A stretch of 64,000 nt of DNA, taken from NCBI GenBank assembly GCA_903904605.1, contig CAIVDC010000118.1:1-64000 (forward strand), given 5' to 3'. The DNA is from an uncultured Sterolibacterium sp. GTDB lineage: Bacteria > Pseudomonadota > Gammaproteobacteria > Burkholderiales > Rhodocyclaceae. Under the pieces are notes generated by a model. The model did not search any database and had not been told where the DNA came from. It saw only the letters and a program-made list of their open reading frames with translations. The first letter of the stretch is position 1. Each line of letters begins with the position of its first letter. This document shows positions 38,592 to 42,912 of this stretch, piece by piece. The position numbers and the translations under genes were made by a program.

Positions 38592-38601
38592 CGAGGTTGG
38601 G

Positions 38602-38635
38602 GCGGGGAGATGTCGAGTGGCAGGCATCTCCCCGC
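38602..38635. terminator. Strong hairpin between convergent def and PEP-CTERM gene
   Basis: GCGGGGAGATG (38602-38612), 12-nt loop, CATCTCCCCGC (38625-38635): perfect 11-bp stem. Confidence 0.6.
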
Positions 38636-38645
38636 GGCAGAAATG

Positions 38646-39275
38646 CTAGGGAATGCGGCGGCGTTTGATCAAGGCCAGACCGGTCAAGGCTATGCCCATC
38701 AGGGCGAGGGTGCCTGGTTCCGGGACTGAGGGGTTGGTTGGGGCAGCGGGGGGCGTCCAGGCAAAGGTCGCGGTCACGTTGAAGTTGTATGTATTCGGAA
38801 TCTGTTCGTTATTCAAGAACGCGTCCAATGTGACGTCGACGGTTCCGTCTGATCCGAGATTGAAAGTAGTCGGCGCGGAGACGTATCCAGTGATGTCGTC
38901 GGCGATGTAGGTGAGATGGAAGGCGGCCTGTTGGCTGACGTTCTGAGAGACGGAACCAATGGTCAGGATCCGGCCGAGATTGAATAGTTGGTCGACCGAT
39001 ATGGCATCTATCGCCGCCTGGTCAAGTCCTGTAATGTCGTAGCCGGGCCACTCGGGCCAGAGCGCGACGAGGAAATTAGCTTGATTGATGGTCGCGCTCA
39101 CCGGGGCCGTGCTGTCGAGTAACACGGTTCCTGAGTAGGCATCCAGCGAAAAACTGTCGTTATGGAAAATGTATGGGGCGAAGGCCGTCGTCGAGATGTT
39201 GACTGAAAGGGTGGTGGCGAAGGACTGGGACGCGCCGGTTAGCAGAATGAAGAACAGCAAGGATGGCAAGCGCAT
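38646..39275 (-). CDS. PEP-CTERM sorting domain-containing secreted protein
   Basis: Signal peptide MRLPSLLFFILLTGASQSFA; C-terminal VPEPGTLALMGIALTGLALIKRRRIP; Cys-free, Asn/Ser/Thr-rich body. Confidence 0.93.
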   Translation of the reverse strand: MRLPSLLFFILLTGASQSFATTLSVNISTTAFAPYIFHNDSFSLDAYSGTVLLDSTAPVSATINQANFLVALWPEWPGYDITGLDQAAIDAISVDQLFNLGRILTIGSVSQNVSQQAAFHLTYIADDITGYVSAPTTFNLGSDGTVDVTLDAFLNNEQIPNTYNFNVTATFAWTPPAAPTNPSVPEPGTLALMGIALTGLALIKRRRIP

Positions 39276-39367
39276 GATTGATCTCCCTTATTTCCGGTTG
39301 CGAATGCGGAAACCTTTCCAGTCGGATTCTGGTCAGGTACTCCGCCATGATCGTTTTCGGACTTAAG

Positions 39368-39383
39368 GGCAATAATTGTGCCG
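39368..39383 (-). promoter_or_regulatory. Candidate sigma-54 (-24/-12) promoter of the PEP-CTERM gene
   Basis: Minus strand CGGCACAATTATTGCC: GGCAC-N5-TTGC with exactly 10 nt between GG and GC. Confidence 0.65.
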
Positions 39384-39518
39384 TGAGACGGCAGTTCTTT
39401 GATAATGCTTGAGTTTGCAAATGTGGGCGGTATTCTTCCCGGTCAGGGTGTAATGTTATTCGACAGGTAGATTGCGAGGCGGCGTGTGCTCCGTCGGAAA
39501 CTCGCTGACGCGAACGGA

Positions 39519-42119
39519 TCAGGAAACCTGCAAGGCTTCCAGCAATTCCTGCTCCATCTTTACCAGAGTCGCCGTTTGCCCCAGTTCAGGCCCGCTGACG
39601 AGAAATGTGTCCTCGACGCGTTCTCCGAGGGTGGCGATCTTGGCCGTGTGCAGGTCGACGCCGTGGCGCGCGAGTACCAGTGCGATCGAATACAACAGGC
39701 CGGGACGGTCGGCTGCCATCACCGACATGATGTAGTACTCCCCCTTTTCGTCGGGACGGATGCTGACTTCGGGGGTGATTGGAAAGTGTCGCACCTGTCG
39801 CGAAAGCCGGCCAGGGGAGGGCGGTTCCAGCGCGGCGCGAGTGGAAAGCCGCGCCACCAGATCGTGCTCGATCAGGGCAATCATGTCGCGGAAGGGCAGT
39901 TGTTGACCGGGATCGAGCAGTATGAAGCTGTCGAGCGCGTAACCGTGGCGCGTGGTGTGGATCTTGGCGTCGGCAATCGAGTAGCCCATGCGGCTGAAGA
40001 AACCGCACAATCGGGCGAACAGCTCGGGCTGGTCGGCAGTATAGATCATCACCTGAAGTCCTTCGGCGACATGGTTCAGGTGGGCTTTCACGACCGGTTC
40101 CTTGGCATCGGGGCGGTAGTAGAGCATGCGTGCGTGCCAGGCGATTTCCTCGGCGTCGTGGCGCATGAAATAGACGGTGTCGAGTTGACGCCAAAGCGCC
40201 TCCTCGACGCCCGGGCGTAATCCGTGGAGCCTCAGCAGGCGGCGCGCTTCTTCCTGGCGGCCGGCCAGGCCGACCGCCTGATGCGGTGTGTCGCCTGCCA
40301 GGAGGCGGCGGGTGGCGGCATAGAGATCCTCGAGCAGTTTGCCCTTCCAGGCGTTCCACACCTTCGGGCTGGTCCCCCGAATGTCGGCGACGGTCAACAG
40401 GTAAAGCGCGATCAGGCGTCTGTCGGTTTTCACCACCGCGGCAAAGTTGCGAATGACCGCCGGATCGCCGAGATCCTGCTTTTGGGCGATGGCCGACATG
40501 GTCAGATGGTGTTCGACGAGAAACACCACCAGATCGGTATCCTCTGTCGCCAGCCCGTGATCCTCGCAGAAGCGATGGGCATCTTTCATGCCGAGCGTGG
40601 AATGGTCGCCGCCGCGGCCCTTGGCGATGTCATGGAACAGTGCCGCTACATAAAGCAGCCAGGGGCGCTCCAAGCCGGCGATGAGGCGGCTGCAGAGCGG
40701 GTATTCGTGGGCAAACTCCGGCATGGTGAAGCGGCGCACGTTCCTCATCACCTGCAGGATATGCTGGTCGACGGTATAGACGTGGAACAAATCGTGCTGC
40801 ATCTGCCCGACGATCTTGCCGAAAGCCGGCAGATAGTGGCCGAGAATGTCGTACTGGTTCATGCGCCTGAATTCATGCACCAAGCCGCGCTTCTGCCGGA
40901 ACAGCGAAAGGAACAGGGCGCGGTTGTTGGGATTGCGGCGGAACGTCGCGTCGATGCGCGCGCGCGCGCGCCATAAGGCGCGCAAGGTGCGGGCCGTCAT
41001 GCCCTTCAACTCGGAGCGCTGCTGGAGCAGCAGGAAACTCTCCAGGATCGCGCGCGGTTGCCGCTCGAATACCTCCTCGTCGCGCACGTCGAGGAGTTCG
41101 CGGTCGGTCTGGAAATTCTCGTTGATGAAAATCGGCGTCGCCCGCTGGGACGGGAATATTCGCCCGCCGAGATTCTGCAGCAACAAGGTATTCAACTGGG
41201 TGATGCGTTTGGCGTTCTGGTAATAGCGCTGCATCAGGCGTTCCGAGGCGCGCTTGTGCGCGCTTGCGGTGATGCCGAAGGCCTTTGCCAAGGCTTCCTG
41301 ATGGTCGAACATCAGTTTTTCCTCGCGTCTCTTGGCGAGGTAGTGCAGGCGGATGCGGATATGGCGCAGAAAGGTCTCGACGCGCTCCAGTTGCCGCGCT
41401 TCCGCGGGGATGACCAGTCCGTTCCGGAGTAGTTCGCGCCAGTTCGCACCCAGCCCGGCGGCGCGGCTGATCCACAGGATTACCTGCAGATCGCGCAAGC
41501 CGCCCGGGCTCTCCTTGCAATTGGGCTCAAGGCTGTAAGGCGTATCGTTATGTCGTGCGTAGCGCTCTTCCTGTTCGAGTTGCTTGGCCTTGAAGAATGC
41601 CCTTGGATCCAGTTGGGCCTGCATGGTCTCAGCGAATTCCGCAAAGGTCTGGCGATCGCCCGCCAGGATCCGTGCTTCGAGCAGAGTTGTCTGTACCGTG
41701 ATGTCGCGTCCCGCTTCTTCGATGCATTCGGCAATACTGCGCACGCTGTGCCCGACATCGAGTCCGATGTCCCAGAGCACGCCGACCATCTGTTCGATCT
41801 TGGCAGTATGGTCTGCATGTTCCTCGTCGGGCAGGAGTACCAGGATGTCCACGTCCGAGGCCGGATAGAGTTCGCCGCGGCCGTAGCCGCCGACCGCGAG
41901 CAGGGCCAGCGGAGGCGGCAGGGCGAAGTGTTGCCAGATCTCGCGCAGCACCGAGTCTACGAGGTCGGCCCGGCCGTGTAGCATTGCCGCGGCATTGCCG
42001 CGACTTTCGTAGTTTTCACGGACCGTGGCCTGTCCCGACTGCAGGGTGGTGCGCAGCCTCTGAACAAGGCTTGGCACCCGCGCTCTGTCCGGCGATGCAG
42101 CCTCAGGCAAAGGTGACAT
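39519..42119 (-). CDS. glnD: Bifunctional [protein-PII] uridylyltransferase/uridylyl-removing enzyme
   Basis: [22 protein letters not shown] nucleotidyltransferase motif; HD domain [15 protein letters not shown]; two C-terminal ACT domains. Upstream start at 42140 possible. Confidence 0.96.
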
Positions 42120-42912
42120 TGCCGGGCTTTGGCGGGGCACCGGCGGAGAGAGTCAATACCTCGAATCCGCTCTCGGTTACCAGGATCGTATGCTCCCACT
42201 GGGCCGACAGGCTGCGGTCCTTGGTGACGATGGTCCAGCCATCGGACAGTTCGGAGATCGCCGCCTTGCCGGCGTTGATCATGGGCTCGATGGTGAAAGT
42301 CATGCCGGGGAAGAGCAGTAGGCCGGTGCCGGGTTTGCCGTAATGCAGTACCTGCGGTTCCTCGTGGAAATTCAGTCCGATGCCATGTCCGCAGAATTCG
42401 CGCACGACAGAGAAACCGTTGGCCTCGGCGTGTCTCTGGATGGCTGCCCCGATGTCGCCCAGGGTAGCTCCCGGACGCACCTTGAGGATGCCGGCCCAGA
42501 GACATTCATGGGTGACCGTGCATAACCGCCTGGCCTGAATGGAAGGTTCGCCCCCGACCATGAACATGCGGCTGGTGTCGCCGTGGTAGCCATCCTTGAT
42601 AGTGGTAATGTCGAGATTGACGATATCGCCCTTCTTCAAGGGCCGGTCATTGGGCACGCCGTGGCACACTTGATGGTTGATCGAGGCGCAGATCGACTTG
42701 GGGTAAGGTACATAGCCGGGCGGGGCATAGTTGAGCGGGGCGGGAATGCAGCCCTGGACGTGGACCATGTAGTCATGGCAGAGCCTGTCGAGTTCGGCGG
42801 TGGTCACGCCAGGCTTGACGAATGGTTCGATGTAGTCGAGCACTTCGCCCGCCAGGCGGCCGGCGACGCGCATCTTCTCTATTTCTGCGGGGGTCTTGGG
42901 AGTGATGCTCAT
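42103..42912 (-). CDS. map: Type I methionine aminopeptidase
   Basis: [62 protein letters not shown]. Confidence 0.96.

Follow-up and report, generated by a model that had tools for sequence, protein, structure and literature searches.

A predicted PrsR/sigma-54 enhancer-dependent promoter upstream of a PEP-CTERM gene in an uncultured Sterolibacterium

A PEP-CTERM gene between glnD and def

We analysed a 64-kb stretch of DNA, hereafter the window, in which a minus-strand gene encodes a 209-aa protein ending in a PEP-CTERM signal, with scores above cut-off for both PF07589 (28.4 bits) and TIGR02595 (27.4 bits) (Table 1). The protein has a signal-peptide-like N-terminal stretch and its C-terminal part reads VPEPGTLALMG...KRRRIP. 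We rejected its assignment as the flocculation protein PepA (NF033554), for which it scores 28.9 bits where 80 are required. Upstream and on the same strand lies glnD, and the intergenic gap of 243 nt between the two genes contains the entire regulatory element described below. The downstream neighbour, def, is convergent. Between it and the PEP-CTERM gene, a strong hairpin (z -4.3) is probably the transcript end of the PEP-CTERM gene and possibly an end common to both genes; it has no T-run and is absent from the list of the terminator scan.

Table 1. Features of the PEP-CTERM locus in window coordinates
Feature	Position	Strand	Sequence or length	Remark
Strong hairpin	38601..38636	-		between the convergent PEP-CTERM gene and def
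PEP-CTERM protein gene	38646..39275	-	209 aa	ATG at 39275; PF07589 and TIGR02595
Predicted leader	39276..39358	-	83 nt	placed by position relative to -12; SD-like AAGGGAG 39289->39283
Predicted sigma-54 -24/-12 promoter	39368..39383 (39383->39368)	-	CGGCACAATTATTGCC	GG-N10-GC with GGCAC-N5-TTGC
Spacer	39384..39448	-	65 nt	between predicted activator site and -24 box
Motif 1 (predicted PrsR binding site)	39449..39465 (39465->39449)	-	TGTCGAATAACATTACA	best match to the de novo motif in the 64-kb window
glnD	39519..42140	-		upstream neighbour, same strand as PEP-CTERM gene

The sigma-54 box and the upstream site

The first-pass annotation had read a sigma-54 promoter in this gap, and the sequence it gave, GGCACAATTATTGC, is found base for base on the minus strand (39382->39369). 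Scored with a sigma-54 matrix built from relatives, the box reaches 12.6 bits; it is weaker than most of the relatives' boxes, and both of its flanks are C, not T. Taken alone, GGCAC-N5-TTGC is weak evidence, since pattern searches of the 4.07-Mb genome returned 57 occurrences versus 28 for the reversed control, and the majority of the sites examined lie inside long ORFs. A regulon defined by this pattern alone was rejected on the latter ground.

Further GGCAC-N5-TTGC sites in the same genome precede flagellar-looking genes (FliE-, FliK- and FliO-like) as well as NifV-like and Rnf-like genes, these likenesses being a reading of N-termini only. Such genes are as expected of a sigma-54 regulon.

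Upstream of the box, the dyad TGTAATGTTATTCGACA (plus strand, 39449-39465) had been offered as a mere candidate for an activator site. We found that it matches both a motif discovered de novo upstream of PEP-CTERM genes and motif 1 of Haft et al. 2006. The de novo motif, TGTCGGaaTTTTTTACA, was obtained by expectation maximisation from 26 regions upstream of PEP-CTERM genes in other genera, the window and its own genus being left out; its log-likelihood is 204, where shuffled input gave 52-57. The held-out window, searched on both strands, has exactly one good match to this motif, and it is the dyad, which scores 15.8 bits (next 11.8) and lacks part of the central T-run. Combined with motif 1, the sigma-54 box is far beyond chance: the composite scores 28.4 bits, elsewhere in the real window the score does not exceed 13.2, and the maximum over both strands of 100 Markov-simulated 64-kb windows is 24.7. 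In 20 relatives, the spacing between motif 1 and the sigma-54 box averages 69.0 +/- 9.5 nt (range 53-85 nt).

In the genome itself, a pattern search for the strict form TGTCG-N7-TTACA returned five occurrences (control 2), two of which lie upstream of the genome's only two strong PEP-CTERM genes. A motif common to the upstream regions of the genome's PEP-CTERM genes had been proposed as a check of the promoter, and motif 1 is present at the only other such gene (C117:15435-16530), where it is strong (TGTCGGAAAACTTTACA, 23.4 bits). The best sigma-54 box of this second gene lies 121 nt from motif 1, which exceeds the published 32-92 nt. The matrix TGTCGR-N6-TTTTACA, a spacing of 53-85 nt and TGGCAC-N5-TTGCT are usable together to find such genes in Betaproteobacteria.

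Conservation in a sister genome and co-occurrence with PrsK

In the protein search, the only ortholog of the PEP-CTERM protein was found in the same-genus genome G003 (67% identity). The same search yielded none in the same-genus genomes G001, G002 and G004, where no such gene follows glnD. The orthologous promoter of G003 lies behind glnD at the end of a contig (C140), cut by one end of an IS30-family element. There, motif 1 reads CGTCGGAAAACCTTACA and is followed, after 65 nt as in the window, by the box CGGCATAGTTATTGCC. Between the window and G003, motif 1 is identical at 13 of 17 positions, and motif 2 with the following 12 bases at 22 of 28; the spacer, equal in length, retains 28 of 65 (43%). 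Conserved motifs around a diverged spacer of constant length are the pattern expected of two sites that would be functional at a fixed distance.

These observations bear on two other readings of the gap. First, the GGCAC-N5-TTGC match could be due to chance, with transcription of the gene coming through from glnD or starting at an unrecognised sigma-70 promoter. About half of the matches to the sigma-54 pattern alone are expected to be false in this genome (57 versus 28), and glnD lies 243 nt away on the same strand, but no sigma-70-type site was found in the region, motif 1 stands at the canonical distance from the box, and G003 has kept both motifs together with their constant spacing; we therefore hold this reading to be highly improbable. 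Second, an inverted repeat, TGCCGT-CTC-ACGGCA (39393-39379), overlaps the -24 box. It could be a terminator or an operator, the likeness to a sigma-54 promoter being incidental, and the terminator scan indeed lists the repeat on the plus strand. However, the scan expects 1.0 such matches by chance, the minus strand lacks a T-run, and G003 has kept GGCA...TTATTGCCC but not the repeat, so that we give this reading almost no credence.

The G003 gene itself lies at the end of another contig (C103), downstream of a 137-bp repeat that forms the other end of an IS30-family element and has at least four identical copies. That the element is IS30-like is our own reading of a readable transposase C-terminus and of an apparent terminal repeat, GAAGTGCAACT / AGTTGCACTTC. 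We had considered that the -24/-12 box was not conserved in G003. This was rejected, because the 137 bp that had been aligned are the IS30-family end and the orthologous promoter lies behind glnD, on the other contig. The IS30-family element thus separates the conserved promoter from the leader and the orthologous gene, and regulation may for this reason be lost in G003, which makes this genome a natural case of promoter-gene disconnection. It is either a disconnection by insertion or a rearrangement point; the contig of the gene shows no continuation into def or mtnP.

The machinery required by a PrsK/PrsR/RpoN regulon is encoded in the genome. A single locus (contig C109) carries PrsK (834 bits), PrsR (733), PrsT (849) and XrtA, that is exosortase A (336), together with an XrtA-associated export protein, a chain-length determinant, a tyrosine kinase, an ATPase, a deacetylase, a FemAB-like protein and a glycosyltransferase, each of them above its NCBIfam cut-off. 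The XrtA/PrsK/PrsR/PrsT/EPS locus is complete in this genome, and RpoN is encoded on contig C110 (TIGR02395, 452 bits).

Across 101 relatives, the composite element follows PrsK. We counted 218 composite sites (control 24) in the 37 PrsK-positive genomes, or 5.9 per genome, and 40 (control 21) in the 64 PrsK-negative ones, or 0.6 per genome. Two or more composite sites were found in 32/37 PrsK-positive versus 4/64 PrsK-negative genomes, a contrast whose P values overstate independence as the genomes are related. Of the four PrsK-negative exceptions, G039 has nine composite sites and G065 ten; in these two, PrsK may be divergent or have been missed at the strict threshold, or a different activator may be at work.

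An activator other than PrsR could also be considered for the window itself, where the sigma-54 promoter would be real and another enhancer-binding protein, e.g. of NtrC type, would use the upstream site. The genome encodes about eight more response regulators with this architecture, full-length or nearly so, and the upstream gene glnD is a nitrogen-control gene. Nonetheless, we judge such a use of the site very unlikely, as the motif that the site matches is specific to the upstream regions of PEP-CTERM genes, composite sites go with PrsK from genome to genome, and glnD, which lies upstream on the same strand, is not driven from 39449-39465.

The published PEP-CTERM element and the proposed regulation

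Haft et al. 2006 described, upstream of 99/167 proteobacterial PEP-CTERM genes, an element whose phylogenetic profile is the same as that of PrsK/PrsR/PrsT (PMC1569441). It consists of a motif 1 with TTTACA at its end and a sigma-54 motif 2, separated by 62.8 +/- 10.6 nt (range 32-92 nt); motif 2 lies 71 +/- 38.5 nt from the start (PMC1569441). In the window, motif 1 is also 17 nt long and ends in ATTACA, one base off the published end. The spacer of 65 nt falls inside the published range and near its mean, motif 2 is present as GG-N10-GC, and its end lies about 92 nt from the ATG, within the published range. The large gap before a PEP-CTERM gene is also found, with 243 nt (>200) ahead of a single such gene, and the genome encodes PrsK/PrsR/PrsT and an exosortase (EpsH). 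The element of the window differs from the published one by the centre of motif 1, AATAACA, which is not T-rich, and by the C on both flanks of the sigma-54 box; likeness to the published motifs was judged from the text of the paper and our own de novo motif. The element of the window is a further instance of one known since 2006, and the known picture is unchanged.

Altogether, the sequence evidence leads us to propose with high confidence that the gap 39276-39518 holds a PrsR/sigma-54 enhancer-dependent promoter for the PEP-CTERM gene, and that this gene is very probably a member of the known regulon associated with exopolysaccharide production. An orphan PEP-CTERM gene, distant from the exosortase locus and beside housekeeping genes, is in this way assigned to the PrsK/PrsR/RpoN regulon from sequence alone. 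The first-pass annotation had already suggested this regulon, and those parts of its proposal that sequence can test hold. The dyad matches the PEP-CTERM motifs, the machinery genes are present, motif 1 recurs at the second gene, and G003 conserves both motifs with their spacing. PrsR occupancy, the start site and dependence on RpoN and PrsR are what we infer.

We can propose the following course of events. PrsK would phosphorylate its partner PrsR, an NtrC-like response regulator, which in this state would bind TGTCGAATAACATTACA, some 91-107 bp ahead of the predicted start. Through looping, it would reach RNA polymerase-sigma-54 at GGCAC-N5-TTGC (39368-39383) and drive ATP-dependent open-complex formation. 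The PEP-CTERM gene would be transcribed by itself, behind a leader of about 83 nt, and regulated together with the XrtA/EPS system. After export, XrtA would sort the protein, which would come to lie with the exopolysaccharide.

A leader of about 80 nt with an AAGGGAG Shine-Dalgarno sequence had been predicted earlier, in agreement with the 83 nt that we count from the predicted start (39357-39358) to the ATG. The leader is conserved in G003 about equally to the coding part, and its fold signal is weak (z -2.4). A folded, conserved leader might add a second, post-transcriptional control to the standard PrsR/sigma-54 switch; judged on folding only and on two sequences, this seems unlikely to us.

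Among studied systems, one of the closest is pepA of Aquincola tertiaricarbonis RN12, a PEP-CTERM gene shown in 2023 to be RpoN1-dependent and whose start was mapped (PMC9850573). Its promoter has a TGGCAC/-12 box and a predicted enhancer upstream (PMC9850573), like that of the PEP-CTERM gene of the window. In contrast, the window protein is a different one, below the cut-off of the PepA family, its gene is not beside prsT, and its promoter is a prediction. The predicted promoter also resembles the enhancer-dependent sigma-54 promoters of NtrC/NifA type by an activator site about 100 bp upstream and a -24/-12 box, but its predicted activator site is the PEP-CTERM-specific TGTCG...TTACA.
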